DNA of 64,000 nt from NCBI RefSeq assembly GCF_008641105.1, contig NZ_VTTI01000010.1:1-64000 (forward strand). The letters run 5' to 3'. This stretch comes from Halopseudomonas salina (GTDB taxonomy: Bacteria; Pseudomonadota; Gammaproteobacteria; Pseudomonadales; Pseudomonadaceae). This document shows positions 10,079-41,355 of this stretch, in pieces. Within the stretch, counting starts at the first letter, position 1; every line of letters begins with the position of its first letter. The position numbers were made by a program, and so were the translations under genes. Below the pieces are notes generated by a model that was not told where the DNA came from, made no database searches, and was given only the letters and a program-made list of their open reading frames with translations.

Positions 10079-10095
10079 CATAAGGCGTACGAGCA

Positions 10096-11202
10096 TTGAA
10101 AACGCAGTCGAATCTTGAGCCAACTCCTCAACTAAAGGTCTGTTACGCACTTGCGTACAAGGCTCCAAAATATATAAGAACATTGAGCATTATCCAGGCC
10201 TTAGAACGAGAAGAAAAAATCCACCTCACCGTCGCGACAAACTCTAGTACAAATACTTTTCGATACCTAGAAACAACTTTGAAGCTTATTATTCAAGCAT
10301 TCAGAGGACGACCGGATATATATATATTAGGCTTCAGGGGGCACGAGCTCTATTGGCTATTAAAATTGATTGCAGGAAATAGGCCCATTGTTATTGACGC
10401 ACTAATGTCTCCATATGCATCATTGGTAGAAGAACGTAAACTTGGAAAAGCAGGGTTAATTATTTCTAATATTATTAAAATAGTGGAATCAACGATTTTA
10501 AAGAGCGCAGACCTAATAATCACTGACACTGACTCACATTCAAAATATTACTCAGAAACCTTTTCTATCAGCGAAAAAAAAATAGTGACAGTACCTGTGG
10601 GCGCCATAGAAATAGACCACCTAACCCGGACACCGGTAGAATCATCTTTAACCATACTATTTTATGGATCTTTTTTACCCCTCCACGGCGTTAGCACTAT
10701 CGTTGACGCTATCGCTTTTATCCCCGACATTCCGTTACATTTCATCTTCATTGGTGGTAAGTTGGAGTATGAGAAGACACTAAAAAAAGCTTTTGCAAAA
10801 AGAACGCCAACGTTGAGCTACAAATATATAGAAAGCGTTCCTTTCGACCAACTGATTGATTTCTATATACCCATGGCAGACGTCTGTTTGGGCGGGCCTT
10901 TCGGTGGCACCAAGCAAGCGCATCGCGTTATTACCGGAAAAACATCACAATGCCTAGCCCTTGCCCGAACAACCATTATTGGAGAAACAAACGAGGTAAA
11001 GAATTTCAAGCATAAAGAAAATTGTTTGATAACCAAACAAAACGACCCCAAATCACTAGCGGAGAATATCACCTGGTGTTGGGACAACAGGGACCGTTTA
11101 GAGAAAATTGGAATCGAAGGCAGAAAAATGTATTTCACTCATTTATCTATCGATGTGATTCGAGCCAAGTTAACAACAGCATTATTCAATATGAATTTTT
11201 AA
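10096..11202 (+). CDS. Glycosyltransferase, GT4-like
   Basis: A 368-residue protein with a GT-B layout: an N-terminal acceptor half (KVCYALAYKAPKYIRTLS near residue 13) and a C-terminal donor half with FYGSFLPLHGVSTIVDA (about 195-210), the core position of GT4 enzymes, and later GKTSQCLALARTTIIGE. Sugar donor and acceptor are unknown. The start used is TTG at 10096 with AAGG ten bases upstream, 17 bases after wbpA, so the two probably form one transcript. The gene is strongly AT-rich compared with wbpA, a sign of separate origin. Its 3' end overlaps the convergent methyltransferase gene by four bases. Confidence 0.75.
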   Translation: MKTQSNLEPTPQLKVCYALAYKAPKYIRTLSIIQALEREEKIHLTVATNSSTNTFRYLETTLKLIIQAFRGRPDIYILGFRGHELYWLLKLIAGNRPIVIDALMSPYASLVEERKLGKAGLIISNIIKIVESTILKSADLIITDTDSHSKYYSETFSISEKKIVTVPVGAIEIDHLTRTPVESSLTILFYGSFLPLHGVSTIVDAIAFIPDIPLHFIFIGGKLEYEKTLKKAFAKRTPTLSYKYIESVPFDQLIDFYIPMADVCLGGPFGGTKQAHRVITGKTSQCLALARTTIIGETNEVKNFKHKENCLITKQNDPKSLAENITWCWDNRDRLEKIGIEGRKMYFTHLSIDVIRAKLTTALFNMNF

Positions 11203-11951
11203 ACATTTTTTTTAGCGAGAAAGATAAAACCGTCGCCAAAGTCGCGAACCATTGGGGCCCTCTGTATATTTTTAAAAAACCAAAGCAACAAGAAAACTAT
11301 GCTTTTATTAAAGAATCGCAGTCCACTTCGAGATATACCGCTTTGAGCGGTGGCTGCATCTCTACTTAGAACAGCGGCTTTCTTATAATACAGCTCTCGC
11401 AAACAGTAAAGGGCATTAGTTACAGGAAATCCGTATATATCAATAGTAATAACTGAGAAACCTGCCACCTCCAACTTTTCTTTCAACTCAGAGCGCTCAT
11501 ATCTGCGAACATGACCTGCCCAAACATCGACCGCTTGCCATTTATTCATGTAAGCCGGTACCGAGCCAATAAACAACCCACCAGCAGTCATATAGCTGTG
11601 TATATTACTCAAAAAATTCTGGTCATCTTCAATATGCTCCAAGACTTCAAAAGCCATAATCAGGTCGAACTCCTTCCCTACAGAGTCAAAACTATCGACT
11701 ATCTTTACATTATTAGCTTCATTAAACCGTTGAACCAAAAGATCCCTAGCATCTATAGATGACTCGACCAGCACTACCGATTCACAAGCAACAAAACTGT
11801 TAAACCAAGCAGCAACATCACCAAGCCCCGGACCTATTTCTGCGACCCTAATCGCTCTTTTGTAAGACAAAACGTACCGACGGAGCAGGCGATCAATTTC
11901 AAAGAAACGCATAATAAAACGGGGAGCAGGTGCGCTGATAAATTTTTTCAT
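11199..11951 (-). CDS. Class I SAM-dependent methyltransferase
   Basis: The 250-residue product has the SAM-binding motif VAEIGPGLGDVAAW (about 36-49), an acidic end of strand 2 (VLVESS), and motif II/III-like DLIMAFEVLEHIEDD (about 96-110), typical of the Methyltransf_11/23 group that includes sugar and lipid-carrier methylases. A hydrophobic segment near 215-230 may touch the membrane. It is the last gene of the minus-strand glycan operon that starts next to pilA, with a four-base overlap with the flippase-like gene upstream. A role in methylating a sugar or lipid-linked glycan is inference from context. Confidence 0.75.
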   Translation of the reverse strand: MKKFISAPAPRFIMRFFEIDRLLRRYVLSYKRAIRVAEIGPGLGDVAAWFNSFVACESVVLVESSIDARDLLVQRFNEANNVKIVDSFDSVGKEFDLIMAFEVLEHIEDDQNFLSNIHSYMTAGGLFIGSVPAYMNKWQAVDVWAGHVRRYERSELKEKLEVAGFSVITIDIYGFPVTNALYCLRELYYKKAAVLSRDAATAQSGISRSGLRFFNKSIVFLLLWFFKNIQRAPMVRDFGDGFIFLAKKNV

Positions 11952-12886
11952 TTTTTACCATAGCGAAATGTTGTTAATACCACGCATGTGACGCCAAACA
12001 TTACATCAATGACACAGCAAATCAGCCGATGCATAAGCACCCATGACAATGCATGCTCCCAAGGAACAATTGAACCTGCCAAACTTGTAAATATGGCTTC
12101 TCGCACGCCGATACCTGCTGGTGCAAGAAAAGCAAGCCAGCCAGCTATCACTGAAATTAAAAAAGCGGCAAGCAGAAGGCCAGTACTACCAGCCAACCAA
12201 CCCTCTCCAAACAGAGGTATTATTGAGATTCCGGTAAAGAGCCATGTTGAAGCATATCCTATACCAAGCGTGAAGGAACTATAGATCGATACTGTTGTTA
12301 CCGACAAACCTTTTCCTAGAACCATTGACGTAACAGAAGTCGAAAATCGGATGGATATACATAACAGAAAAAAGTAACATACAGTTACGACTGAGAGAGA
12401 CACCAGGCCCGAAATATAAACTAGCGCAATCACCCAGCCAGCCGTTAGGACTCCAATACACAAGGAGGAAATTTGCTCCCCAACTGAAACGATGGAATTT
12501 ATACGACTGAGCTTGACCCCTTGTTTTGATACAATACCTCTTCCCAGAATCCCAACTATTTTTCCTGGGAAATATTTACCTATTACCAAAAAACCGGTAT
12601 CAATTAGTATGTCTTGAAAGCTTCTAAATATATTGTAAATTCGAAGATATCGCTGCCAAAGAAACGCTGACAGGAAATATACTGACAACATCAAAGCCAT
12701 TACCAACATGGTCGCTACAGGTGAAAAGTTTAAATCTAAAGGAAGTTTTGATTTTGTTTTTAGGAGATAAATAGCTGCCAGCACGAGAGCAATAATAGCC
12801 GCCAAGAAAAAACTACTCCACACAAGCTTTATCCGGGCGCTCTCTCCAAGCCCGACCAACCAAGCACTACCTTCTATATTTCTCAT
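11948..12886 (-). CDS. Flippase-like membrane protein (LPG synthase TM family)
   Basis: A 312-residue protein with about eight membrane helices and the family's central pattern (VIGKYFPGKIVGILGRGIVSKQG, about 95-117, and LAFLAPAGIGVREAIF, about 258-273). This fold is shared by the membrane part of lysylphosphatidylglycerol synthase and by AglD-like proteins of glycan loci, often annotated as flippase-like. Both its start and its stop overlap neighbours by four bases, so it is translationally coupled to the GT2 and methyltransferase genes. A second member of the same broad family lies at 30468-31409. Confidence 0.75.
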   Translation of the reverse strand: MRNIEGSAWLVGLGESARIKLVWSSFFLAAIIALVLAAIYLLKTKSKLPLDLNFSPVATMLVMALMLSVYFLSAFLWQRYLRIYNIFRSFQDILIDTGFLVIGKYFPGKIVGILGRGIVSKQGVKLSRINSIVSVGEQISSLCIGVLTAGWVIALVYISGLVSLSVVTVCYFFLLCISIRFSTSVTSMVLGKGLSVTTVSIYSSFTLGIGYASTWLFTGISIIPLFGEGWLAGSTGLLLAAFLISVIAGWLAFLAPAGIGVREAIFTSLAGSIVPWEHALSWVLMHRLICCVIDVMFGVTCVVLTTFRYGKK

Positions 12887-13773
12887 TCACTTCTCTTATA
12901 CATGAGCATTGTTATCTGTTCGGATATTAGCCCCATCAAGAAAATCATTGCGCTAGAGGTAAACAATAAAGCACTCATATTAGTAAACTTATCAAATGCA
13001 GAAAGGGTATAACCGTACCATCCCATACCTAACATGAAAATAAGAAGTGAAATTGGGGCGAATATTTTCAAGGGAGAATAAAGCGTTCCAATTTTGAATA
13101 TAATTAAAACAAATCTAGTGCCATCCTTTAAAGGCCTGATGTGGCTAGTACCAACCCGTTTTGCGACATGGATAGGCTCATATGCTACCGAATAACCAGC
13201 CCTAAAAAATGCCATAGTGCTGGTGGTTGGATAAGAAAATCCGTTGGGCAATAAATAAATAAACTCCCGAAATTTTTCTGCACGTACCGCTCTAAACCCT
13301 GAAGTTAAATCACTCACTTTATGCCCGGACATGTATGTTGCAAGCCAGTTATAAAATCGGTTAGCAGTCCCACGCCACACATTGGCCTGAGATCCTCGTT
13401 GGCGCGACCCTACGACAAGATCGTGCCCCGAAAGCAGGCGATCAACAAGCTTCACAATAGAATCAGCATCGTGCTGGCCATCCCCATCCATAAATACCAG
13501 AACATCACCTTTAGCATGTCGCGCACCGGTCTTGATCGCCGCCCCATTCCCTTTAGAATAGGGGTGCTTAATAACTATTGCCCCAGCAACAGAGCTGATT
13601 ATTCCTGTATCGTCGTCTGACCCATCATCAACCACGATAACTTCCAAATCAAGCGCAAGTGCCCTTACAGTTTCCACTACAGTGCCTATGGTTGCGGCCT
13701 CATTCTTGGCCGGTATTACCACCGATATTTTCAATTTTACTACTTCTTCTGAGAGTTTCATCATTGCTTTCAA
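12883..13773 (-). CDS. Polyprenyl-phosphate glycosyltransferase, DPM-like GT2
   Basis: A 296-residue GT-A enzyme with SVVIPAKNEAATIG (about 17-30), the nucleotide-binding VVDDGSDDD and the metal-binding MDGDGQHD (about 95-102), then two C-terminal membrane helices (about 232-250 and 265-285). This layout is that of dolichyl/undecaprenyl-phosphate mannose or glucose synthases, which move a sugar from an NDP donor to polyprenyl phosphate at the inner membrane. It would supply the lipid-linked donor for the membrane glycosyltransferase upstream. The ATG at 13773 makes a 74-base overlap with that gene; starts at 13764, 13761 or a TTG at 13734 are possible and the choice is open. Confidence 0.85.
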   Translation of the reverse strand: MKAMMKLSEEVVKLKISVVIPAKNEAATIGTVVETVRALALDLEVIVVDDGSDDDTGIISSVAGAIVIKHPYSKGNGAAIKTGARHAKGDVLVFMDGDGQHDADSIVKLVDRLLSGHDLVVGSRQRGSQANVWRGTANRFYNWLATYMSGHKVSDLTSGFRAVRAEKFREFIYLLPNGFSYPTTSTMAFFRAGYSVAYEPIHVAKRVGTSHIRPLKDGTRFVLIIFKIGTLYSPLKIFAPISLLIFMLGMGWYGYTLSAFDKFTNMSALLFTSSAMIFLMGLISEQITMLMYKRSE

Positions 13774-15703
13774 TCTCTGACTTAAGTTCTTGAATCATCG
13801 ACGCTAGTTTACTATTCGTATCTGGTTTAGCTAATAACTTTTCTCTGCGTCTAACTGCATCGTAAGCAGATTTCTTGTCTCCGTCTTTAAGGTGCAGGTA
13901 AACCTGATATTGCAAAACTGGAGCAACCTGAGGCCCGGCCTGCTCAGCGATATCAAGCTTGGTAAGAGCATTTGATATATCACCCCTACCTTCCTCAGTC
14001 ATTGCATACAAGAAAAATAGCTTTGTATTGTATTCAGGTACCTGAGCTGCCTTATTCTCAATCATAGCATCCAGCAGTCCTGAAAGGTGGCCGTAGTCCA
14101 AATCACCGCATGATTGAGAGGCGATAAATTCATGCAGATCAAATAACAAATTTATTACACTTTGATCTAAATTTCCTGAGGGTACAAGTTCTAGAAGTGA
14201 TTTGAACCGTTCAAGGATTTGATCTGACGTTTCAACCACACAGGCAAATAACAATGCTTGTATTCTAATATTTATGCAGTCTGGACATGCCTTGAAAGTC
14301 TTATCCATTATTCTTAATGAGATTGCATGCTTCTCTTTAACAATAAAGTCTTGGTTAGCATCATACAAATTTTTGGCTTGGCCGTTGGGTAGGCCTTCCA
14401 TTTCAATAAATACAGAATGCAAAGCGGCTCTAACTGAACCGGGATGCTTTTGATTCCAAACATCAGCAGCCTTTGCGGGCTGCCCCCATAAATTTGTAAG
14501 ACCATATAATATTACAAGTAACAAGCAGCAGTAAATAGCATAAGAATATCTAACAATTCTACCGACTCGGCCACGGACCATGAAAACTGTTACAGTCAGG
14601 GACAATACAGCACCATATAGAGCAGTATAATTTCGATGCTCATAATATAGCTCCAGCAGCACGGTGGTGGACTCAATCAGGTGCCCTGTCAAGTACCACG
14701 CCAAAGCAAACAAAAGCCAAACACTTCGCTTTCTCATTTTAAAAGCTAAAATCGAAATAACTGCCCAACCACACATTGCGAGTATAGTTTTCAGTTCAAA
14801 ACCAAGAACCCCAAAATAATCGTGAAACGGCCCATATGACGTTGGGGATTGAGGGAAAAAAGCTGAAAAAAGATATTGCCAAAGGATATAAGTTTCGGTC
14901 AGCAGTCTGTCCCAGGGTGTGTACCCTCGGTGTTCGCTATATTCAAACCAATTAATACTCAATGGCGAAATCTGATATAAAATCACTAATAATGGGAGGA
15001 GTAATGTCAAACGCCTAATATTTTGAAAAGCTTGAGCTTCTGGCACCTTGCGAGCGAATAATAACTCGATTACTAGCGCATAAACGGGGAATATTAGACC
15101 AATTTCTTTGCTGAACACCGAGAGAACACTAAATGCCCCTACGCCTCCAACCTGTATTAACATCGCTTTATTTGGGCTATTTTGGTAAAACTTATATCCG
15201 TGCAAAAACAAACTCACGCCAAAAAGACCAAACAAGGTCGCTAAACCAGTCATACGTTGAATCGCAATTAAACTCGTAGACGCTAATATTGGCAATATGG
15301 CCCACATAAAAGCAGCTGCGACAGATACCCTAAAAGAACTCCCTACAACTTTAGCTTCCGACAACTTTACTAGCCGATGACCTATGTAAACCAGCAATAG
15401 AAAATTCAACAGATGTATGAGTACGTTGAACAACAAAACTGCTTGTGTGTTTCTGGGCCAACCATCAGCGAACGGCACAAAACTTAGAAGCGCCAATGGC
15501 CTTCCTAAAGGCCCTGAATGTCCACCAAACACGAATGACTGAATGTCTCCGGAAGAGGCGAGGGTGGTTAATCCACTGAGATTCGAATAGTCATCATAAT
15601 ATAAGGCGCCGGTTGTACCTGGATAATATGCAAGACCAAGCAGCATAAGTGCCGCAAGTAAAATTAAAGATCGAGAAATTATTAATTTTTTCATATTCAC
15701 CAT
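13700..15703 (-). CDS. TMTC-like membrane glycosyltransferase with C-terminal TPR-like repeats
   Basis: The 667-residue product has about ten membrane helices in residues 8-405 and a soluble, helical C-terminal part (about 430-640) with repeat pattern like TPR units (for example YAMTEEGRGDISNALTKLDI and YQVYLHLKDGDKKSAYDAVR). The first periplasmic loop has an acidic pair in GALYYDDYSNL (Asp37-Asp38), the typical GT-C catalytic loop. This order, GT-C core then TPR, is that of TMTC O-mannosyltransferases and of bacterial protein O-glycosyltransferases. Located right after pilA and before a DPM-like donor synthase, it is a good candidate pilin glycosyltransferase; that role is inference. The start could also be ATG 15694. 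Confidence 0.7.
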   Translation of the reverse strand: MVNMKKLIISRSLILLAALMLLGLAYYPGTTGALYYDDYSNLSGLTTLASSGDIQSFVFGGHSGPLGRPLALLSFVPFADGWPRNTQAVLLFNVLIHLLNFLLLVYIGHRLVKLSEAKVVGSSFRVSVAAAFMWAILPILASTSLIAIQRMTGLATLFGLFGVSLFLHGYKFYQNSPNKAMLIQVGGVGAFSVLSVFSKEIGLIFPVYALVIELLFARKVPEAQAFQNIRRLTLLLPLLVILYQISPLSINWFEYSEHRGYTPWDRLLTETYILWQYLFSAFFPQSPTSYGPFHDYFGVLGFELKTILAMCGWAVISILAFKMRKRSVWLLFALAWYLTGHLIESTTVLLELYYEHRNYTALYGAVLSLTVTVFMVRGRVGRIVRYSYAIYCCLLLVILYGLTNLWGQPAKAADVWNQKHPGSVRAALHSVFIEMEGLPNGQAKNLYDANQDFIVKEKHAISLRIMDKTFKACPDCINIRIQALLFACVVETSDQILERFKSLLELVPSGNLDQSVINLLFDLHEFIASQSCGDLDYGHLSGLLDAMIENKAAQVPEYNTKLFFLYAMTEEGRGDISNALTKLDIAEQAGPQVAPVLQYQVYLHLKDGDKKSAYDAVRRREKLLAKPDTNSKLASMIQELKSEIESNDETLRRSSKIENIGGNTGQE

Positions 15704-15735
15704 AAAAAAACCCCGGCATGAAGGCCGGGGTTTTT
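15704..15735. terminator. Bidirectional Rho-independent terminator after pilA
   Basis: CCCCGGC (15711-15717) pairs with GCCGGGG (15724-15730), flanked by seven A on the left and five T on the right, so it can work in both directions. For pilA, on the minus strand, the U-tract ends exactly at the start codon of the TMTC-like gene. Pilin mRNA would mostly end here and a fraction would read through into the glycan operon. Confidence 0.9.
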
Positions 15736-15746
15736 AGTCTACTAAA

Positions 15747-16151
15747 TCAACCGCGGCAAGAGCCCGGCATCCACTTAAGAGGCAGACCAGAACATACCCA
15801 CTCGCCTATACGGTTTGTGGAAGTATCCGACGGAGTTAGGGTAACAGTCACTGTCTCGCCGAAGTTCTTACCTGTTGCTGTAACTTCGCCTGAACTTGCG
15901 TCTACGAGAAGAGTAGAAACATACTGGGTCGAGCTAAAACCTGTGGAACAAGTATCAAGGTTTGAAAAACCTTCAGACTGAACTATCTCAGTCACACATG
16001 TCCGCGCCGAGCTAGCAGCCAGAACAATCTCAGAGGCCTTAGCGCGGTTAGTGTAATCCTGGTATGCCGGCAGCGCGATGGCAGCCAGAATACCGATGAT
16101 CGCTACAACGATCATCAGTTCGATCAATGTAAAACCTTTTTGAGCTTTCAT
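15747..16151 (-). CDS. pilA: Type IV major pilin PilA
   Basis: The major subunit of the type IV pilus. The 134-residue prepilin has a six-residue leader MKAQKG, then the processed and methylated Phe+1 in [20 protein letters not shown] with Glu+5. Two cysteines near the C-terminus (WVC...GSC) form the usual D-loop. GGAG lies seven bases before ATG 16151; the frame extends four codons further, without a site. It is divergent from pilBCD, has its own sigma-54 promoter and a strong terminator, and is followed by probable glycosylation genes. Ser/Thr-rich stretches ([19 protein letters not shown]) are plausible O-glycan sites, but no site can be assigned. Confidence 0.95.
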
Positions 16152-16198
16152 AGTCAACTCCATTTATGTGATTTAGCCTAGAGGCTGCTTTTCTAAAT

Positions 16199-30105: not shown

Positions 30106-30378
30106 GTGGCAAACTCACCTCAAGCCAAGAAACGCGCCAAGCAGGCCGAGAAGCGCCGCAATCACAACGCAAGCCTGCGCTCCATGGTTCGTACTTATAT
30201 CAAGAACGTGGTCAAGGCTATCGACGCCAAAGACCTGGAAAAAGCAAAGACTGCCTACACCGCAGCAGTGCCGGTTATTGACCGCATGGCTGACAAGGGC
30301 ATCATCCCCAAGAACCGAGCCGCTCGTCACAAGAGCCGCCTGAACGCACACATCAAGGCAATGGCTACCGCCGCCTGA
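30106..30378 (+). CDS. rpsT: 30S ribosomal protein S20
   Basis: A 90-residue, Lys/Arg/Ala-rich small-subunit protein starting [21 protein letters not shown], the S20 signature. The start codon is GTG at 30106 with GAGGAG seven bases upstream; the frame is open further 5' but that covers the promoter. A GTG start is known for S20 genes, and in E. coli an unusual start codon takes part in its autoregulation. The gene has its own promoter and terminator. Confidence 0.97.
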
Positions 30379-30467: not shown

Positions 30468-31409
30468 CTAACGCCGAGACTCTCTTCTTTCGGACATTTC
30501 CAGAATTCCTATAGCAGCAAATCCAAAAAGAATGGAAAACCACATTCCTGCGACTCGAATCGCTATCGCGGTGACAGCTGCAACCTCCACCGAAATACCA
30601 TAGACACCCAGAATCGCTATCAGAGAAATCTCCGTCGAACCGATGCCGCCGGGCAACATGGACGCCGCGCCAGCAAGCATCGCCAGCGGATAGCTACCGA
30701 ATGCGCTCAGAAAAGGGATTGTCAGATTGAGCCATTCAAGCAGGTAGCAAAAAGAAAGAGCGGTAACCGACCACGCCAATAAGCCAAGCCCAAAAGAGAG
30801 TGCAACGTCAGGGCCGTTCATCCAAACCCGGCAGGATATGAGCCCATCCTCGACAACCTTCACCATCCCGCCCAACCGATCCATCCCGTACCTGACAACA
30901 AAACTCTCGATTACGTGCAGTGTCTGCGGGAAGCGTCCAAGCAGCAGAACCGCACTGGTGAAAAGCACTACGAAGATACCGCTTAGCCAAAGAATGCCGT
31001 GCTCACCAAATGCAGCCATACCCAGCAGAAACACTACGACCAGGTCGAACGATCTTTCATATACAAACGCCCCGAAAACGACCTGAGCAGGCACCGACTG
31101 GCGATCCAAATATCGGATTCGAATCAGCTCTCCTATCTTGCCTGGCGTTGCCGTAAAAGCGAAACCTGAAAGGTAAGCCAGATAACCGAAGATCCACCCC
31201 GTCCGATACCCGGCCCGCTTAAGCAACCAATGCCACCTCAGATAGCGGACGAACCATGACAAACATGCGAAACCAACCAATACTGGAAGAACCCGCACGA
31301 CCTGGTCCATCAGCTTGAAAGTGTCGTTTCGGGTATCTGCCCAGATCAAGCCAAGCAAGTAGAGTGCAGACAGGACGATGAGCCCGAGTACGGCGCGACT
31401 GAAATTCAA
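30468..31409 (-). CDS. Flippase-like membrane protein (LPG synthase TM family)
   Basis: A 313-residue protein with about eight membrane helices and the family pattern YLAYLSGFAFTATPGKIGELIRIRYL (split over about 75-102), FGAFVYERSFDLVVV and MLPGGIGSTEISLIAIL (about 250-266). The shared membrane core with lysylphosphatidylglycerol synthase and its frequent presence in glycan loci suggest a part in lipid-linked sugar export or transfer. It is the last gene of the arabinose-type cluster. It matches the protein at 11948-12886 in layout but differs clearly in sequence. Confidence 0.8.
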   Translation of the reverse strand: MNFSRAVLGLIVLSALYLLGLIWADTRNDTFKLMDQVVRVLPVLVGFACLSWFVRYLRWHWLLKRAGYRTGWIFGYLAYLSGFAFTATPGKIGELIRIRYLDRQSVPAQVVFGAFVYERSFDLVVVFLLGMAAFGEHGILWLSGIFVVLFTSAVLLLGRFPQTLHVIESFVVRYGMDRLGGMVKVVEDGLISCRVWMNGPDVALSFGLGLLAWSVTALSFCYLLEWLNLTIPFLSAFGSYPLAMLAGAASMLPGGIGSTEISLIAILGVYGISVEVAAVTAIAIRVAGMWFSILFGFAAIGILEMSERRESRR

Positions 31410-31415
31410 ACGTGA

Positions 31416-31817
31416 TTACCGGAAAGAATAATATTTATGACCGAGATAACTAGTGAACACAGGAACAACAACCCCAATCGCGTGGGCTGCTTCGCGCGCA
31501 AACCTTTCAATCCCGAGCCACGGAAACACTACGAAAGCCAGAAACATGCTGAGCCCCCATGTCTGCAAAATCGCCACGAAGTTCACCAGAACAAACCACC
31601 CTGCAGAAAGCCGTAAAGACTGCCGGGTCTCACGGAACACGAACAATCTGGCCAACACGAAAGCGGTCACCATTCCGGTAAGGTAGGCTAGAACCACGGC
31701 AGTAGAAAAACTGGTCCAAACGTCATAAACAATCCGCGACGCCAGATTGACCAGCGCTGCGATGCCACCCGTTATTAGAAACGCCAGGAATTTTCCGGAA
31801 AGGAATTGCCGGATCAT
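31416..31817 (-). CDS. GtrA family membrane protein
   Basis: A 133-residue protein with four membrane helices and the GtrA/DPMS pattern ([18 protein letters not shown], about 15-32; ending [10 protein letters not shown]). GtrA-like proteins are thought to flip polyprenyl-phosphate-linked sugars; one (Rv3789 type) is linked to export of decaprenyl-phosphoryl-arabinose in mycobacteria. Presence beside DprE1/DprE2-like enzymes suits such a role. It overlaps the FAD oxidoreductase gene upstream by four bases. Confidence 0.85.
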
Positions 31818-33100
31818 CCTGCGGCGTCTCTGGCGATTGCACGTCCGAACTTAACGCTTTCCGATATCCCCCTGTCTTCCGGGTAGTAATAGGACGTGTC
31901 AGCGACCCACAGTCCCGCTATCGGCAACTTGGGCGGAGGAAGCCTGCGCAGAAAACCCGGCTCGCAAATCGGTTGCGCGAAGCGATAGCGGCTGGCATGA
32001 ATATCCAGGAAGTCATCATCATCCAAAGCCGGGTTGATTTTCTTGAGGTAGCTTCGCACCTTGTCCACGAAAACCGAATCAGGATCGGCAAACTTCCGGT
32101 GCTCTGCCGGCATGTAAAACGGCACGTAAACGATACTTTCTTCCAGGGGATACAAGTTCGAGTATTCGACCAAACCGGGTATATCCATGTCCGGATCATT
32201 GATATTCACCCAGAAATTCGAGCTGACCGGCTTGTTCAACTTCGCAATTACGCAAACGACGGCAATGTTCCGCACGGAACAAAAACGGTCTAGTAGCTCA
32301 ACGAGCAGATCCGGGGCAATTTGAGGAATGTAAGGCAAAGGGATCGTGCTTATGACCCTTTCAAAAGGATCAAACTGGCCTTTCGCCTCGATACCACGGA
32401 CGCTCCCCCCTTCCATAACGATTCGCGAAACCGGCGTATTGAGCCTGACCTCTCCGCCCCGCTCTTCAATCGACGCACGCATAGCTTGAAGGAGAGTGTC
32501 TGATCCGCCTTCAAGATACCCAAGCTTTTCCTTGAACAGATTGTATCTGGAGCGACCGATACGGCGGATGCGACTCCATATCCATGCCGCAGAAAGGTTA
32601 TCTGAATAGTCGTAGAACTTGTAATCGAAAAGTTTGCGCCATAACACTTCGTACGCCTCTGGACCTACCCAGCGCTTGATCCAGCCCGTCGCCTCCACGT
32701 CATCCAGCGGCGTCCAATCATTGCGTTTGGTTGACAGAAAAGCATGCAATCCGTATCGAAACTTGGCGATCATGCCAAGCCCTCGAAATCTCAGCAATGC
32801 AACTGGATTGCCCCAGGGCTGAAGTTCACCCTGGTACCAGTAACCCATTCTGGTAGCCACCCAGTGCATCTTGTCCGTCAGATCCAGCTCCTCCAACAGC
32901 TCAAGAAATGCGTCGTCGGAGGTGCAATGGAAATGGTAGTAGCGTTCGATATTCAACCCAGAGAAGTTAAACGGAGCAGCCATGCCGCCCACTCGATCAT
33001 CCGCCTCGAAGACAATCGGCTGATGGCCATCCAGCGCTAATTGATACGCAACTGCCAGCCCCATCGGACCTGCGCCTAAAACTGCTACGCGCTTACCCAT
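31814..33100 (-). CDS. NAD(P)/FAD-dependent oxidoreductase of glycan cluster
   Basis: A 428-residue flavoprotein with the dinucleotide-binding motif [19 protein letters not shown] (about 6-24), the GG motif [12 protein letters not shown] and a C-terminal FAD contact near [16 protein letters not shown] (about 395-410). The fold is that of amine oxidase/UDP-galactopyranose mutase/protoporphyrinogen oxidase relatives. The substrate is unknown; from context, a sugar nucleotide or a lipid-linked sugar is possible. It starts two bases after the epimerase gene and overlaps gtrA. Confidence 0.75.
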
Positions 33101-33102
33101 AT

Positions 33103-34044
33103 TCAGAACTCCAGAGCAATGTGGCTGTATCGGGGATCATTGAACGTCTCGTTGATCGCTTCCGCAAAAGGCGTGCACTGAACACCGAAAATAGCCGGCC
33201 AATCAATCACTTCAAACTCATCTTTGGCGGTTAACGCCGCCAGTTGCTGAGTCGTGAAAGGCGGATTTCTGTCGAACAGTGCCCATATCCAGAGTAGAGA
33301 ATGAAACATGCTGTAGGGAATCTTGGTTATGACAGTCCGTGCGCCGGTCACGCGCTTGATGTGCCGAATAATATCTATGTAATCGACCTTTTCATGACCG
33401 GAGATGTTATAGATCCCGTCCGCTGCCCGGCCCTCCATGGCGCTAATGATCACGTTACAGAAATCTCCGACATATAATGGCTGCCGCATGTATTCACCAT
33501 TACCAGGAATAGGAAATACGGGCACCTTCTTCATAAAGCGGGAAAGCCAGCCCAGATGCTTCCTGTCAAACCACCCGAACATCAGAGTCGGCCGGAGGAT
33601 TGGGCACGAAATCCCGCTCTCCAATACCAGGTTTTCTTGCAGGATCTTGGTCCTGGTATAAAAATCGCCAGCAACAGAAACCACAACCGAGGAACTGATA
33701 TGCACGAGCTTCGAAACCTGGTGCTCTTTAACTGCTGATAGTATCAATGCCGTAGCCTCGACATTGTTACGGAGAAACTCCTCGTACTCTGTTCCGCCAA
33801 TCTGCGCCTGCAGCATCACTACCACTTTGGCGTCTTCGAAATGCTGTCGCCAATCGCCCGGCTGCGCCAAATCGACACACTCTGCCAGCACCCCGCCATG
33901 TACCGATTTCAACACATCCACGTTGTGTTGGTGTTTATCCAGCACAACGATGTTCGAACAGCCCTTGGCAATAAGCCTCGCCACCAGATTCTGACCAACC
34001 AGCCCGGCGCCCCCAGGCAAAACAATTTTATCGGTCAGCAACAT
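33103..34044 (-). CDS. NAD-dependent epimerase/dehydratase (extended SDR)
   Basis: A 313-residue extended short-chain dehydrogenase: nucleotide motif [14 protein letters not shown] (about 11-24), SSSVVVS near 117-123 and the catalytic Tyr/Lys pair in YTRTK (about 129-133), followed by [17 protein letters not shown]. Such enzymes epimerise, dehydrate or reduce NDP-sugars. Which sugar cannot be told. It is separated from the DprE2-like gene by about 196 bases, so a second promoter or processing site may lie there. Confidence 0.85.
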
Positions 34045-34110
34045 CAGCGTAATCCTTGATCCAGTTGGTTGGTACTGATGGCTTTAGTCTACCAATCACT
34101 TAGCGGTGCC

Positions 34111-34130
34111 TGTAATTCGAAAAAATTACA
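34111..34130. promoter_or_regulatory. AT-rich palindrome between epimerase and DprE2-like genes
   Basis: TGTAATT (34111-34117) and AATTACA (34124-34130) form a perfect 7-base inverted repeat around CGAAAA. It lies in the only long gap inside the cluster (34045-34240), 67 bases upstream of the epimerase start. It could be an operator or an RNA hairpin; there is no T-run to make it a terminator. The rest of the gap shows no clear gene. Confidence 0.35.
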
Positions 34131-34240
34131 GTGAACTCATCAGCGAAAGACCTCGTTGGCATCAGTCAAATGACATCATCAGCGTGATGGATCGCAGAGG
34201 ACACCTGGCGGCTCTCCATAAACATAATGCTAGCCGCGGA

Positions 34241-34978
34241 TTACAGACGGGTTCGTTTCAGTATGTCGTGGGGCATCGAGCGGATGATAAGCATGATCCA
34301 CCACCAAAAACCGGGCACGTAAACAACATTCATTTTGCGCTCAATGGCTCTACGAATAGCTTGGCCAGCACGCTCAGGCGACACAGTGAGCTTTTTTGGT
34401 AGGTCAAGACCTGCGGTCATAGGGGTCGAGACAAATCCAGGCTTGATCGTTACAACATGAACTCCCACCTTGTAAAGCCTAGCGCGCAGCCCTTCACAGA
34501 ACGTCGAAACTGCAGCTTTCGCCGCCCCATATACATAGTTGCTCTGGCGCCCCCTATCACCTGCCACCGAAGATATGACCGCAAGGGTTCCACTGCATTG
34601 GATCTCCAGATGGTTGGCGATCACCGAAAGCAACATAATTGTCGAGACCGCGTTGGTTGCGAAAGTATCCAGCAGCACACCTACATCGTTTTCGCATTTA
34701 GTCTGATCAGGGAGTGTGCCATGGGCGACCAGAGCAACATCTATATGGTGCAGCTCGCGAAGACAGGCATTCAGCATCTCGGGATGTGTATCCAGGTCGT
34801 TCACGTCCATCTTGAAGAGAATCACCGAGCTGGCACCCCGGACATCAAGGTCGTTCTTAATCTGCTCAAGCTTTTCTTCGTCCCGGCCGACAAGAAAGAA
34901 AGTGTGCCCCTGCTCCGCCCAACCCCGAGCACAAGCGACGGCGATGGCCGACGTGGCCCCTAGAATCAATATGTTCAT
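34241..34978 (-). CDS. DprE2-like SDR, polyprenylphosphoryl-2-keto-ribose reductase
   Basis: A 245-residue classical short-chain dehydrogenase with ILGATSAIAVACARG (about 4-18), the Ser-Tyr-Lys triad in ISSVAGDRGRQSNYVYGAAKA (split over about 136-157) and the PGFVSTPMT loop. The VAGDRGRQSNYVYG stretch closely follows mycobacterial DprE2, which reduces decaprenylphosphoryl-2-keto-ribose to the arabinose form. With a DprE1-like gene two genes upstream the assignment is strong. Start and preceding stop share ATGA, so it is translationally coupled to the 782-residue membrane protein. Confidence 0.85.
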   Translation of the reverse strand: MNILILGATSAIAVACARGWAEQGHTFFLVGRDEEKLEQIKNDLDVRGASSVILFKMDVNDLDTHPEMLNACLRELHHIDVALVAHGTLPDQTKCENDVGVLLDTFATNAVSTIMLLSVIANHLEIQCSGTLAVISSVAGDRGRQSNYVYGAAKAAVSTFCEGLRARLYKVGVHVVTIKPGFVSTPMTAGLDLPKKLTVSPERAGQAIRRAIERKMNVVYVPGFWWWIMLIIRSMPHDILKRTRL

Positions 34979-37323
34979 TCTGTACTCTGTTCCCAATCAG
35001 GCTGGCGGGCCCGAACTTCCAAGTTTGAACGTATATTTGAGCACCTGTGGACCGCGCCCTCCTGAACGAAAGCCAACCCTACCTCAAAACTACCTTGTAG
35101 CTTGCCCACCACCGCGGCAATCGAGAACCCTGAAGCTGATAGCTTTTCATCGCCAAAATGATCGCCTATCTCAGGCCGTATTTCGGAGCTTGTCTCGAAC
35201 CAGTGTGATACCCCTTCTGAGTCTTGCAGCACAAAGTAGGTTAATGCAGGCACAAGGGGTTGTTTTTCTGAGCTTATCAGCCAGCCACTTGCATGGAGAA
35301 TTTCATCAGCAGCTGACACCCGATCCACAATTTTAAAAGCACCTTCACAGGTTACCATTCGCGTTTCTGCTTCGCTAAATAGGTTTGGCTCAGCTTTCGA
35401 AAATTTATAGATATCCTCCACCGCGAACTTGGAAACACCATCCAATGATTCGATCACTACGTGAATGTTTTCTTGCCAGAACCAACTCCCCCACGAACTG
35501 CTTGTCACTTGGACCGATTCCACTGATTCTGCAGATAAGTAATTTGTCCGCCCCCAGAAAAATCCGAATTGCTTAGTATTATTAATGAGCGGACTGACCA
35601 CAAAGCCACTGCGAGCCATGGTCGCTATGAAGCGATAACTATAAGTTCTTCCATCCTGCAGCCGGACCACTAGCTTAAGCTGATTCGGCTTGAATAAAAA
35701 AGAAACAAGCCTGCCAAGGAGTGAAGGGGTGATATCCATGCTCATAAAAATTGGCGTATCTCGATGCGGAATAGTTACAAGCTCTCCCAGCCTGTAGGTT
35801 CCTTTGAAAATCTCTTGCCGAGACATGGAGTAACCGCTTGTGCGCTCAAGCTGTAAATGGGACTGAAGGAACTGCACAGGTTTATATCTCCCAAGCAGCT
35901 CCAGCCAACTTAAACCGTCTTCTATCGCAGGAAAACGCCCGTCAATGGGCTCCACATTAAAAAAAATGTTACCAGGTGCGCTATTACTAGCTAAATAAGC
36001 TCGGTTTTGCTCGGCCAACGAGTCCGTATAAACTGAATAACTCTGAAAGACTGGGCGGGGGGCCCAGTTGTTCCCCGAGGCTATGAGCGCCCACTGCTGA
36101 TGGGAGTAAATATCAGATCCTCCTTCTAACAGTGGTATCGGAGAAAGTCTCCCGAGGTTTTCTAACGATAGATCGTAGGAAGCTTTAAGTGATGCCGGCT
36201 GGAAAAGCCTAAGATAGGCTCCATAGGCGGCCGCACCATAAACATTTTTATTAGATGAAAGATAGTCTCGCACTGGAGAGTGCAAGTAACTAGCGCTGAT
36301 AAAAAAACCGCTCGTGCACGCAATAACAACCGCAAAACCTGAAGCTCGATTAAAGCGAAATAGCAAAGTGCAAATAGACACCAAAATAAGCACAATGCTA
36401 GCTATCAGAGCGTGATGGCCGTCGTGCCGAACAAAACTCGACTTAAAGGAAAGAAAAAGAATCAAGCAGAACATCAGAAATACGTATATTTTTTCCCAAC
36501 GCGGCTGCTCTTGCAAGAGCACCGCCAGGGATATGGTGCAAGCAGCCGCCAAGTAAACTATGACTTCAAGAGAAGATCCCGTCAACGCCATGGCTTCAGT
36601 GTAACCTTGAACGATCGGCAGCATATTCGTAATATAAATCCGTAGTGTATCTAACGGCTGCTCTGCGATAAGCCACGCTGCAACTATAACGATAGGCGGG
36701 ATGCACACTGTAAGCGTGGCCATAAGCCACTCTCGCCGGGCGATCAGCAACACCGCAGCCAAAACCATTACCGCTATGCAAGCGATCAGGAGGGTTCCCT
36801 TAATCAGGGGCAAGAAGCCAAGCGGGGCAAGCACAATAATCATCACGAGCGCACTTGCTAACCGGCTATGATATCTATCGCGAAGCCCAACTATCGCTAA
36901 TCCAATCAAAAGTGGGAGCAAGAACAAAAGAGCATCTCTTGCGAAAAGGCTAGTTGGTAACGCCAGCGCCAATATTACCAGCGGGAGAGAAGAGCGCCTA
37001 CCTGCCGCCATGAGAGCTGCTACCCAGCCGGCAAAGGCCAGAAATAAACTACCCCATACCATCAGTTCGTCCGTTGCCGGATGAAAGTACCGAGTAAAAA
37101 CAGCCGCATAGGGGCCAAAGGTGAATATGATATCTTCACCGATCTTCATTCCTTCGGCCACACCTACGTTCATTCCCAGTCGCCACGAAGGATCAAGACC
37201 AGCCACAGGCATAAGTGGCAACAACGGAACCAAAACCGCGAGCATTGCAAACAACAACAGCCCTTTAGCAAAGAGATTCAACCATCGACCCGAAGAACTC
37301 GTGTTTTGATTAGCCTGACTCAT
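34975..37323 (-). CDS. Large membrane protein, candidate lipid-linked-sugar transferase
   Basis: The 782-residue product has about twelve membrane helices (residues 15-355) and a large C-terminal soluble part (about 360-782), probably periplasmic. A conserved-looking acidic motif GLDPSWRLGMN lies in the first outer loop (Asp44), where GT-C enzymes keep their catalytic acid. I do not recognise a named family. Within a cluster that makes polyprenyl-phosphoryl-arabinose, a role in transferring that sugar in the periplasm is plausible inference. The C-terminal part ends in a region of beta-like pattern (GWLISSEKQPLVPALTYFVL) that could bind carbohydrate. Base composition is more AT-rich than in the housekeeping genes nearby. 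Confidence 0.6.
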   Translation of the reverse strand: MSQANQNTSSSGRWLNLFAKGLLLFAMLAVLVPLLPLMPVAGLDPSWRLGMNVGVAEGMKIGEDIIFTFGPYAAVFTRYFHPATDELMVWGSLFLAFAGWVAALMAAGRRSSLPLVILALALPTSLFARDALLFLLPLLIGLAIVGLRDRYHSRLASALVMIIVLAPLGFLPLIKGTLLIACIAVMVLAAVLLIARREWLMATLTVCIPPIVIVAAWLIAEQPLDTLRIYITNMLPIVQGYTEAMALTGSSLEVIVYLAAACTISLAVLLQEQPRWEKIYVFLMFCLILFLSFKSSFVRHDGHHALIASIVLILVSICTLLFRFNRASGFAVVIACTSGFFISASYLHSPVRDYLSSNKNVYGAAAYGAYLRLFQPASLKASYDLSLENLGRLSPIPLLEGGSDIYSHQQWALIASGNNWAPRPVFQSYSVYTDSLAEQNRAYLASNSAPGNIFFNVEPIDGRFPAIEDGLSWLELLGRYKPVQFLQSHLQLERTSGYSMSRQEIFKGTYRLGELVTIPHRDTPIFMSMDITPSLLGRLVSFLFKPNQLKLVVRLQDGRTYSYRFIATMARSGFVVSPLINNTKQFGFFWGRTNYLSAESVESVQVTSSSWGSWFWQENIHVVIESLDGVSKFAVEDIYKFSKAEPNLFSEAETRMVTCEGAFKIVDRVSAADEILHASGWLISSEKQPLVPALTYFVLQDSEGVSHWFETSSEIRPEIGDHFGDEKLSASGFSIAAVVGKLQGSFEVGLAFVQEGAVHRCSNIRSNLEVRARQPDWEQSTE

Positions 37324-37381
37324 AAAAAATCTCCCGCTACGCTGAGCGAAAAAGCGTATTCTCCGTTCGTTATTTGTAGAT

Positions 37382-38692
37382 TCATTCCGTTACCCGTTTC
37401 CAGAATCTAGAGTTAAGTGAGGGATCACGCAGCAACTCGACCTGCTCCCACGCTGGATACCCGGAGCGGAAGTCCGCCCCGGACATGTGTGCATCTTTTG
37501 CTGGGTAAAGCCGGCCCCCTGCCTCGCGAACCACGAGATCCATCCGGTTGAACAGACTTGCCAACTTTGAAACCTGGGGGAAATCCAAGGCTAGAGAAAT
37601 ACCCGGCTGCGGAAACGACAGCAGGCCGGGGCTTATACCGTTGCCACAGCGCTTAAGAACTGCGAGGAATGAACCCTGGCCGGAACTTGAGATTACATCC
37701 AGCAGGTCGCGTATTGCTTCTCGTGCGGAGTGATGCGGCACTATGCACTGATACTGTTGAAATCCGCTTCGACCATAAATACGGTTCCAGTTGGACACAC
37801 CATCCAGCGGGTAAAAGAACGGTTGATAATCGCTGCGCTGCGGGGTGGGGGCGCTTTGGTGCTTGCGCCAGTACAACTCGTTAAATATCCGCAACGACGG
37901 ATTGTTAACTAACGAAACAGAGGGAGCAAAAGGTACGTTAAATCGGGGGGGCGAGCTGTGATCGAGAGTACCGGAAGGGGCGTGATCACCGACGAAGTAA
38001 ACACCTCTGCCCGCTGAGGATCCCGTGGCCAGACAATCAATCCAAGCAACGCTGTACTCATGTTGGTCATCTAACTGTTCTGACAGTTCGAAAAATCGGT
38101 CTAGATTATCAAAGCGTCTAACGACGCCGCTGATCTGGCTCGACGATATCGGCATAAGCTGAATTTCGGCCCATTCGATCACACCAGTCAGGCCGAGCCC
38201 TCCAATGCTCGCCGCGAAAAGCTCTGCGTGTATTTCTCGTGAGCAGATCAGCGCACCGTCGACGGAGCGGACAAGACTAAATTGATTCACATGACTGCCA
38301 AATGTGCCGCGTATATGATGATTTTTCCCGTGGACGTCGTTGGCTAGCGCACCGCCCAGTGTCGCGAATTGCGTTCCGGGTGTGACTGGCAGAAACCAAC
38401 CGCGCGGAATCGAGAGCTGCAGGATCTCGCCCAGCGTTACTCCAGCTTCGGCGCGAAGAATACCGTTTACCCAGTCAGCTGCAATGAACCTGTCCAACGA
38501 GCGCATCTGAAGCACGTGGCCCGATGTCGCAAGACAGCTGTCTCCGTAGCTTCTGCCGTTTCCAAAAGGCAGCAGTTCTCCATGCGCACGCGCGATAGAG
38601 GCTATTTGATCAGCAACCTGATTGCGCCAAACAAGAGGATGCAAGGTTTGGGGAAAATGGGGATAACGCCCCCAGGAAAGAGCTGTATCCAT
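37382..38692 (-). CDS. DprE1-like FAD-dependent oxidase
   Basis: A 436-residue protein of the VAO/PCMH flavoprotein family with the FAD motifs LLPFGNGRSYGDSCL (about 40-54) and LGGALANDVHGKNHH (about 112-126), both typical of DprE1, which oxidises polyprenylphosphoryl-ribose at C2. The last part includes LYPAKDAHMSG, also DprE1-like. The start overlaps the upstream stop (TAATG), and the DprE2-like reductase is in the same operon, so the two-step epimerase is complete. DprE1 in mycobacteria is a well-known drug target. Confidence 0.88.
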   Translation of the reverse strand: MDTALSWGRYPHFPQTLHPLVWRNQVADQIASIARAHGELLPFGNGRSYGDSCLATSGHVLQMRSLDRFIAADWVNGILRAEAGVTLGEILQLSIPRGWFLPVTPGTQFATLGGALANDVHGKNHHIRGTFGSHVNQFSLVRSVDGALICSREIHAELFAASIGGLGLTGVIEWAEIQLMPISSSQISGVVRRFDNLDRFFELSEQLDDQHEYSVAWIDCLATGSSAGRGVYFVGDHAPSGTLDHSSPPRFNVPFAPSVSLVNNPSLRIFNELYWRKHQSAPTPQRSDYQPFFYPLDGVSNWNRIYGRSGFQQYQCIVPHHSAREAIRDLLDVISSSGQGSFLAVLKRCGNGISPGLLSFPQPGISLALDFPQVSKLASLFNRMDLVVREAGGRLYPAKDAHMSGADFRSGYPAWEQVELLRDPSLNSRFWKRVTE

Positions 38693-40170
38693 TACGCTGC
38701 AATCCAGAAAACCATACCGAACAGCACACCCACCATCAGGCTTACGCGGTCGCGGATGGCGAATACCACTGGGTCATCATCCATGACCCCGCGATGGGTC
38801 AGCATCCAAATGCGGGTAATCCAGAATAACAGTAGCGGACAAGCCAGCCATATGAGGCGTGGTTCCGTATACATCCCGGTAGTTTCCTGATCGTGGATAT
38901 ACAATGCCAGGACCATCACAGACAGATAGCCCGAGGAGGCGCCAAGTGATGCAACCATTTCTAGATCGGAAGGGAAGTATCCTCGACCACGGGTTTTTTC
39001 GGTCTCGCCGCTACTTCGCGCCGCGTTGAGCTCGGCATATCGCTTGACCAGCGCAAGGCTGAGAAAAACGAACATGGAAAAGGCCAGCAGCCAGAAAGTG
39101 GGGGATAAGTTGAACGCTGCGGTACCAGCGATAATGCGCATCGTATAAAGCGTCGCTAATGTAATGACATCGATCGTCATTAGCTGCTTCAGCCAGAGCG
39201 AGTATGTCAATGTGATGAAATAATACAAAGCTAATGCGGCGACAAACTTCCATGGCAGAAATAGTGCAGCGCCCGTAAAGGCGACAACAAGCAGGGCCGG
39301 AAAGACCAGCAAGCCAGCTTTGATGGACAGCGCCCCCGAGGCAAACGGCCTTGCATGCTTGGTCGAATGGTGACGGTCATCCTCAAGATCGAGTAGGTCG
39401 TTGAAGATGTAAACCGATGATGCGCATAAACCAAAAAAAACAAAGGCAAGAATGCCTTGCAGAAGAAGCGAGCTTTGATCGAACTGATGCGCAGCGAGCA
39501 GGGGAACAAAAATCAGTAAATTCTTTAGCCACTGATGAATCCGCAACGCCTTGAACCAGACCCGTATCCCCGCCCGGCCAGAATCCATGACAGCTTCCAC
39601 ATTGCCCTTTCGCCTCGCCGCAATCAGAACGCCAGCTTGAGGGTTGACCACATAGGCTCGGCGAGCTGCAGTCCATATGCATATGTCGTCTGAAGAGTTG
39701 CCGGCATAGTCAAACCCGCCTCGGCCGTAATGCTCAACCAGCAGGTCACACTTGCTCTGAGCTGAAAGGTTCCGGCTGGCGTTGGTCGCCAAAACCTTGT
39801 CGAACAGTTGAAGATGTTTGGCAATGCGGTTGGCCAATATCTCATGGCTCGCAGTGGCAAGAACTATCTCACGCCCTTCACCGCGCGCGTTTTCGATCAA
39901 CTCCAGAACGGCCGGGTCATAGGGAAGTACAGTCACATCTATTTCGGTAGCTCTGGCAAGCTCCTCCTTTAGCTTGACCTTACTCTCGTGCAACCATTGG
40001 AATGGCTTGATCACGCCAAGAGGGTACTGACGCAGGAACGCCAGACCGCTCTCAAGCAACATGTCCGACCGAAGTAGTGTGCCGTCAAGATCAATGCACA
40101 GCGGGATCTTGCCTGTCATGCACTTCATGAGGCTAAGTTGTTCGCGCTGAGTATCCGTATCCGCTTCCAC
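38692..40170 (-). CDS. HAD phosphatase-UbiA prenyltransferase fusion
   Basis: The 492-residue product joins an N-terminal HAD domain (DLDGTLLRSD, about 28-37; later a GNSSDDICIW-like motif IV region near 156) to a UbiA membrane prenyltransferase (about 205-490, some eight helices) with the metal-binding motif NDLLDLEDDRHH (about 256-267) and TYSLWLKQ. The UbiA part is like the enzyme that attaches phosphoribose to decaprenyl phosphate; the HAD part could remove the 5-phosphate. This makes it the first committed enzyme of the cluster. The start is uncertain: GTG 40170 is the longest, ATG 40128 and 40119 are alternatives, none with a strong ribosome site. Confidence 0.85.
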   Translation of the reverse strand: MEADTDTQREQLSLMKCMTGKIPLCIDLDGTLLRSDMLLESGLAFLRQYPLGVIKPFQWLHESKVKLKEELARATEIDVTVLPYDPAVLELIENARGEGREIVLATASHEILANRIAKHLQLFDKVLATNASRNLSAQSKCDLLVEHYGRGGFDYAGNSSDDICIWTAARRAYVVNPQAGVLIAARRKGNVEAVMDSGRAGIRVWFKALRIHQWLKNLLIFVPLLAAHQFDQSSLLLQGILAFVFFGLCASSVYIFNDLLDLEDDRHHSTKHARPFASGALSIKAGLLVFPALLVVAFTGAALFLPWKFVAALALYYFITLTYSLWLKQLMTIDVITLATLYTMRIIAGTAAFNLSPTFWLLAFSMFVFLSLALVKRYAELNAARSSGETEKTRGRGYFPSDLEMVASLGASSGYLSVMVLALYIHDQETTGMYTEPRLIWLACPLLLFWITRIWMLTHRGVMDDDPVVFAIRDRVSLMVGVLFGMVFWIAA

Positions 40171-40236: not shown

Positions 40237-41355
40237 CTATACCAGCACCAAATTATCCCGATGCACCATCTCCGGCTCATCGATATATCCCAGTATTTTG
40301 GCCACCGAATCGGTTGGCTGGCCGAGGATGCGGCTGGCATCCAGGGCACTGTAATTGACCAGTCCGCGCGCCACTTCCTTGCCGTCAGGCCCAACGCAAA
40401 CAACCATTTCGCCACGGCGGAAAGCACCTTCAACAGCGACTACACCTACGGGTAGCAGGCTGCGGCGTCCGGAGGCCAGGGCCTTTACAGCGCCCTCATC
40501 GATAATCAGCCGACCGCGGGTCTGCAGGTGTCCTGCGAGCCATTGTTTGCGGGCTGCCAGCATGCCTTTCTCTGGCAGCAACAGCGTACCCAGCTCCTCG
40601 CCGCCCTGTAGCCGCCCTATGACACGATCAATCCTGCCACCGACAATCACCGTACCCGCACCGGAACGAGCCGCCAGCCGCGCTGCACGCAGCTTGGTGA
40701 GCATACCGCCGCGGCCCAGCGCGCCAGCACTGCCGCCCGCCATCGCATCCAGAGACGGATCGTCCGCCATTGCTTCGCGCACCAGCTCTGCCTCGGGATT
40801 GCTTCGAGGGTCAGCGGTGTACAAGCCATCGCGGTCGGTAAGGATGACCAGCAGATCGCCTTCGACCAGGTTGGTCACCAGCGCGCCCAGGGTGTCGTTG
40901 TCGCCGAAGCGGATCTCGTCAGTGACCACGGTGTCGTTTTCATTAACCACCGGGATGACGCCCAGATCGAGCAGGGCACGAAGGGTGCTGCGGGCATTCA
41001 GGTAGCGTTTGCGGTCAGAAAGGTCATCGTGAGTCAGCAGAACCTGGGCAGTAGACAAACCGTGAGCCTGGAAACTGGATTCCCAGGCCTGCACCAGACC
41101 CATCTGGCCGATTGCCGCCGCCGCCTGCATCTGGTGGATTGTCTTGGGGCGCTCAGTCCAGCCCAGACGACTCATGCCTGCCGCTACGGCGCCGGATGAA
41201 ACCAGAACCAGTTCCGCGCCGCTTTTACGCAGCTCGACCAACTGCTCTACCCAGACCGCCATCGCCTCCTTGTCGAGACCGCGACCATCACCGGTCAACA
41301 GGGCGCTGCCGATCTTGACTACCCAGCGACGGGCGTTGGTTACTTTGTCACGCAT
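40237..41355 (-). CDS. proB: Glutamate 5-kinase
   Basis: First enzyme of proline synthesis, feedback-inhibited by proline in relatives. The 372-residue protein has the amino-acid kinase domain ([13 protein letters not shown], about 12-24; [21 protein letters not shown], split over about 146-166) and a C-terminal PUA domain (about 280-365; [13 protein letters not shown]). It follows obgE, with a REPIN-like element between, the normal order in Pseudomonas. Confidence 0.97.

Follow-up and report, generated by a model that had tools for sequence, protein, structure and literature searches.

Does an operon with mycobacterial-type genes for lipid-linked arabinose make plain arabinose when it also encodes two further redox enzymes? 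The question is raised by positions 30468-40170 of a Halopseudomonas salina contig (NZ_VTTI01000010.1, assembly GCF_008641105.1), whose first 64,000 nucleotides are the window analysed here. The original prediction read this cluster as a source of a lipid-linked D-arabinose donor for an envelope glycan or glycoprotein. In our analysis the gene set very probably assembles a sugar of the arabinose type on a membrane lipid, as tuberculosis bacteria do, and to this extent the prediction holds. Plain D-arabinose as the end product is not settled, because three further genes, for an extended short-chain dehydrogenase/reductase (SDR) of the epimerase type (EPI), a PRK07233-type FAD enzyme (FADOR) and GtrA, are tied to the pathway yet missing in many clusters that share this core; a pilin as acceptor is doubtful. 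Our own explanation, which we find about as easy to doubt as to accept, is that the operon would make a tailored pentofuranose linked to polyprenyl phosphate and destined for an extracytoplasmic GT-C transferase, plain arabinose thus not being the end product. We computed protein families, conserved residues, association, gene order and modularity, and from these we infer every reaction, those of EPI and FADOR above all.

The core pathway

First of all, a complete core leading from 5-phosphoribosyl diphosphate (PRPP) to polyprenyl-phosphate-linked arabinose, with its catalytic residues intact, is supported by homology. The HAD-UbiA fusion matches the UbiA (1.7e-18) and HAD (1.4e-9) families and NF006088 (667 bits; cut-off 351), and the best PDB sequence match of its UbiA half is the mycobacterial decaprenyl-phosphate phosphoribosyltransferase 8j8j (1.3e-26). 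Apart from the Cys387 position discussed below, residue counts refer to loci in which at least 85% of the query is covered, a rule that omits UbiA relatives lacking the HAD half. On this basis the UbiA motif NDxxDxxxD (N257, D258, D261 and D265) is kept in 48/48 loci and the DLDGT motif of the HAD domain (Asp27 and Asp29) in 46/48, the other two having no aligned letters there; a predicted 5-phosphatase is in place as this fused domain. One UbiA-HAD match (L092) holds two internal stop codons, perhaps through gene decay or an error in the sequence.

The DprE1-like protein has mycobacterial DprE1 as its best PDB sequence match (1.8e-61), and its residues H121, K123, K347, Y396 and K399, which we take to be active-site residues equivalent to His132, Lys134, Lys367, Tyr415 and Lys418 of Mycobacterium tuberculosis, are invariant in 52/52 loci. 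Similarly, the DprE2-like protein finds mycobacterial DprE2 as its top PDB match (1.5e-27) and keeps Ser143, Tyr156 and Lys160 in 52/52 loci. Both proteins are homologues that fall outside the curated NCBIfam equivalogs, the former reaching 335 bits against NF053785 (7.7e-100; curated cut-off 500) and the latter 185 bits against the DprE2 model NF053786 (2.5e-54; cut-off 250), which ranks second to the general SDR model NF005489 (339 bits; cut-off 267). The predicted UbiA/DprE1/DprE2 core is thus borne out by its matches to solved mycobacterial enzymes, and the loss of active-site residues in DprE1 or DprE2, named beforehand as refuting, was sought by alignment and the residues are retained. 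Homology and conserved residues together suggest that the UbiA domain would transfer ribose-5-phosphate from PRPP to polyprenyl phosphate, that the HAD domain would take off the 5-phosphate, and that DprE1 would oxidise and DprE2 reduce C2 to give polyprenyl-phosphate-D-arabinofuranose.

At the position of mycobacterial Cys387, the covalent benzothiazinone site of that enzyme, 52 of the 53 aligned loci have Ala and the remaining one has Ser. Covalent benzothiazinones, the basis of the check with DprE1 inhibitors that had been proposed, are therefore not expected to work here. The presence of DprE1 and DprE2 in a Gram-negative genome need not by itself imply plain arabinan or sensitivity to covalent DprE1 drugs.

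An add-on module tied to DprE1

Second, EPI, FADOR and GtrA form an add-on that is strongly tied to DprE1. Among the best 80 of 297 genome loci, chosen by the family of the 782-residue membrane protein of the cluster, tblastn finds DprE1 in 34, EPI in 36, FADOR in 34 and GtrA in 32. EPI adjoins FADOR in 39/39 FADOR loci, 35 of which also contain DprE1; the remaining four comprise L059, where DprE1 is encoded in another part of the genome, and three contigs 7-11 kb long. Beyond these 39, about 1.5 kb separates EPI from FADOR in L126. The association recurs in genome samples, where at most five candidates per genome were scored. In 299 evenly sampled Pseudomonadota genomes, FADOR occurs in 7 (E 1e-80) and DprE1 in 41 (E 1e-50), and all seven FADOR genomes fall among the 41 (P 5.7e-7, ancestry not corrected). 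All seven also have EPI, and in six of them FADOR and DprE1 lie within 7 kb on one contig, the two being on separate contigs in the seventh (G160). A class sample of 321 genomes adds nine FADOR genomes to one (G001) already counted; DprE1 is present in 9/9 (E 1e-98 or better), within 4 kb of FADOR in seven, on another contig in one and 1.3 Mb off in one. FADOR without DprE1 was thus found in none of the 16 sampled FADOR genomes of the two samples, and in the phylum sample FADOR was not found in 34 of the 41 genomes with DprE1.

The order UbiA-DprE1-DprE2-EPI-FADOR-GtrA, with intervening genes allowed, is found in 37/50 FADOR loci, the window included; the other 13 include several incomplete loci. 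The genes around the six vary between loci. One contig was entered twice (L005 and L138), so that 37/50, the 41 module-bearing rows of the tree described below and the following identity medians each include one copy too many. Among loci that carry FADOR as well as DprE1, identity to the window has a median of 46% for DprE1, 42% for DprE2, 67% for EPI and 70% for FADOR; EPI and FADOR are better conserved than DprE1. A GtrA profile, for which these module loci were the main training set, matches in 36/40 of them against 5/42 module-free loci (28-34 bits).

What the module may do

EPI is an epimerase-type SDR (5.6e-19) with a glycine-rich motif and YxxxK, in which Ser118, Ser119 and Tyr129 are present in 39/39 loci and Lys133 in 38/39, with one gap. 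FADOR is a flavoprotein of the amine-oxidase/phytoene-desaturase type (552 bits against PRK07233; cut-off 252), and GtrA matches its family at 5.7e-12. Kinship of FADOR with UDP-galactopyranose mutase was considered and finds no support among the best 60 of 228 PDB profile matches, which include no such enzyme.

These families also allow an action on the lipid carrier, in which an SDR and a desaturase-like flavoenzyme would alter the isoprenoid, for example its alpha unit, to give a carrier reserved for this sugar. The best profile match of FADOR is indeed the phytoene desaturase 5mog (1.1e-15), and EPI also matches the 3-beta-HSD family (2.5e-15). On the other hand, the best profile match of EPI is a dTDP-glucose 4,6-dehydratase, many core clusters manage without the module, and it is not evident why DprE1 systems alone should need a special carrier; we thus regard this as very unlikely. 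The resemblance of EPI to nucleotide-sugar SDRs would suit the production of a separate nucleotide sugar that always neighbours arabinose in the acceptor glycan. This we consider decidedly unlikely, given that the six-gene order contains no cytoplasmic glycosyltransferase and that the genes around it are variable.

Of the six genes in this order, that for UbiA alone encodes an enzyme of the glycosyl-transfer type, so EPI and FADOR would most simply act on the product of that enzyme. In the tailoring that we favour, this second SDR and FAD pair would alter the lipid-linked sugar after DprE1 and DprE2 and before GtrA, the simplest change, and our leading guess, being the inversion of another carbon, such as C3 to give lyxofuranose. 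The lipid-linked sugar would then be flipped by GtrA, possibly aided by the LPG_synthase_TM protein of the cluster, before the 782-residue GT-C-like protein attaches it to an envelope glycan. A bolder version, possible but doubtful, is that EPI and FADOR form a redox pair analogous to DprE1/DprE2, converting polyprenyl-phosphate-D-arabinofuranose into a sugar new to bacterial glycans, such as D-lyxofuranose (C2 and C3 inverted), in a portable six-gene cassette found across distant bacterial lineages. If EPI and FADOR do tailor a lipid-linked pentose, some DprE1-bearing bacteria would make an envelope sugar now annotated as arabinose, and the module would be both a sequence marker for such a sugar and a compact, assayable cassette.

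At an E-value of 0.01 the putative transferase matches nothing in Pfam or NCBIfam, and its model resembles GT-C enzymes, ArnT and AftA included. Its family also occurs in many Legionella species (L014, L018-L020, L023-L026, L029 and others) without arabinose genes in the DNA examined.

Inheritance and exchange

The module is both inherited and exchanged, and has been gained or lost repeatedly. A DprE1 tree of 83 rows (82 of 92 DprE1 loci and the window, ten being omitted for short matches or short context) contains 41 rows with the module and 42 without, and the module label changes 19 times along it, against a mean of 27.9 for shuffled labels, which indicates both inheritance and exchange. 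The tree was built by a quick method and has several long branches; at least 7 of the 19 changes are forced by well supported branches. Two labels (L022 and L044) are uncertain, and without both there are 18 changes rather than 19; for two further loci (L118 and L164) the module-bearing label comes from DNA elsewhere in the same genomes. In L106 (genome G729), two UbiA-DprE1 sets lie about 12 kb apart, with EPI-FADOR-GtrA beside one of them. The DprE1 proteins of L064, a record titled Bacillus subtilis, and of Stenotrophomonas maltophilia L063 are sisters in the tree, and the former record is perhaps mislabelled or contaminated.

Eight plasmid matches were found and five examined; those from Agrobacterium, Burkholderia, Rhodobacteraceae and Rhizobium carry all six genes by annotation and in the same order as above, the Agrobacterium plasmid being typed conjugative. 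The fifth, from Embleya, is unannotated in this region, and its distant FADOR match (29%) has none of the other genes beside it. Phage carriage was considered and set aside, 50,697 phage records giving one distant match only (30% identity over 56% of the query).

Closer to the window, UbiA-HAD is present in 23 of 298 sampled Pseudomonadaceae genomes (E 1e-60), one of which (G662) was examined within 1.5 kb only. Among 20 regions from this family, 11 have the core and an LPG_synthase_TM protein without EPI or FADOR, 5 have EPI-FADOR-GtrA, one (L118) is cut by a contig end with its module on another contig, and 3 show neither architecture, one of these (L121) also being without DprE1 and DprE2. 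The LPG_synthase_TM protein is found in none of the seven uncut module loci of the family sample (L001 and L053 included); together with GtrA it occurs in the window, where it matches its family at 1.2e-41, and in 10/40 module loci overall.

Relation to known systems

That Pseudomonas has a matching pathway, as the original prediction stated, is already published (PMC12369383, PMC11127046). Described there are the D-arabinofuranose genes PSPA7_6245-6251 of P. paraeruginosa (PA7, Pa5196), their P. syringae homologues and a TfpW encoded at the pilin locus (PMC12369383), and a P. syringae phosphoribosyltransferase with a fused PRP (HAD) domain (PMC11127046). DprE1/E2 homologues are likewise tied there to arabinofuranose glycans (PMC11127046). 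Because lipid-linked D-arabinofuranose pathways are published for Pseudomonas, the core is of a known kind, and the novelty lies in the EPI-FADOR-GtrA half. The window shares with P. paraeruginosa a UbiA phosphoribosyltransferase and a lipid-linked D-arabinofuranose route. Unlike the P. paraeruginosa genes, which serve pilins via TfpW, its operon has EPI, FADOR, GtrA and its own GT-C-like protein and sits between proB and rpsT, the PA7 island being compared from a partial gene list.

Three-component systems of Citrobacter youngae, described in Kelly 2024 (PMC11127046), combine a HAD-UbiA fusion that makes undecaprenyl-phosphate-ribofuranose with an SDR epimerase, a flippase and a GT-C protein. 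The window likewise has a HAD-UbiA fusion, an SDR, a flippase candidate and a GT-C-like protein. It differs in that C. youngae uses a MATE flippase and one SDR alone to reach xylofuranose, whereas the window combines DprE1/E2 with an extra SDR and FAD enzyme and GtrA; by Pfam, none of its eight cluster proteins is a MATE-family flippase, GtrA and LPG_synthase_TM being present instead. The same text mentions elaborate multi-epimerase systems in Xanthomonas and Bacillus whose role is left unexplained (PMC11127046). The mycobacterial decaprenylphosphoryl-arabinose pathway (Rv3806c, Rv3807c, DprE1, DprE2, Rv3789) has the same four-step logic and catalytic residues; in the window, on the other hand, a HAD phosphatase replaces the Rv3807c type, the Cys387 position is Ala, and EPI and FADOR are extra. 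Beyond PMC12369383 and PMC11127046, the literature searched holds nothing on the six-gene combination, most subscription papers lying outside that search, so that absence from print is not shown; the accessible portions of PMC11841053, PMC10412643 and PMC12826051 contain nothing on EPI or FADOR.

Genomic setting and the pilin locus

All eight open reading frames are confirmed on the minus strand (Table 1), with intergenic gaps of -22 to +196 bases, and the operon, its products and their family matches are as originally described. The cluster is flanked by proB (glutamate 5-kinase; 40237-41355) and rpsT (30115-30378, on the plus strand; identified by eye). The nearest named full-length relatives of proB are from Pseudomonas species (88-90%), the chromosome being Pseudomonas-like. 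The cluster has a G+C content of 0.515 against 0.586 and 0.587 in its flanks, which suggests an acquired island. A promoter and terminator scan was uninformative (12 against 8.2 expected and 18 against 15.0 expected).

Table 1. The eight genes of the cluster and the basis of each assignment
Feature	Coordinates	Strand	Basis
HAD phosphatase-UbiA fusion, 492 aa (putative polyprenyl-phosphate 5-phosphoribosyltransferase and 5-phosphatase)	38692..40170	-	family, PDB match, conserved residues
DprE1-like FAD oxidase, 436 aa	37382..38692	-	family, PDB match, conserved residues
782-aa membrane protein, GT-C-like, two C-terminal beta domains; candidate sugar transferase	34975..37323	-	model comparison
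DprE2-like short-chain reductase, 251 aa	34241..34996	-	family, PDB match, Ser-Tyr-Lys
EPI, extended SDR of epimerase type; add-on module member	33103..34044	-	family, residues, gene neighbourhood
FADOR, PRK07233-type FAD enzyme; add-on module member	31814..33100	-	family, profile matches, gene neighbourhood
GtrA, putative flippase for lipid-linked sugar	31416..31817	-	family, locus profile counts, gene order
LPG_synthase_TM flippase-like membrane protein; candidate alternative or second flippase	30468..31409	-	family

Finally, the operon may simply make polyprenyl-phosphate-D-arabinofuranose with which pilins are arabinosylated, as happens in P. paraeruginosa, and EPI and FADOR would then be incidental. 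The core pathway is complete, and in L107 a core without the module adjoins pilB and pilA together with a membrane protein that matches the model of the terminal beta-arabinofuranosyltransferase AftB (4.8e-19), at 68 bits far under the cut-off of 1050. In the window, pilA (15747-16163) is followed by genes for a GT-C/TPR protein, a GT2 synthase, a membrane protein and a methyltransferase (locus 11199-16163; G+C about 40-43%). The GT-C-like protein there (667 residues, with TPR repeats; named relatives include several from Halopseudomonas) has no match to the AftB model. Pilin as acceptor of the arabinose-type sugar is doubtful, since pilA appears to have its own glycosylation-type cassette and the operon its own GT-C-like protein. 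We accordingly lowered pilin arabinosylation as the leading explanation and hold plain arabinose for pilins to be unlikely. Next to the pilin cassette, 8723-11202 encodes a nucleotide-sugar dehydrogenase together with a group-1 glycosyltransferase whose family match is weak.

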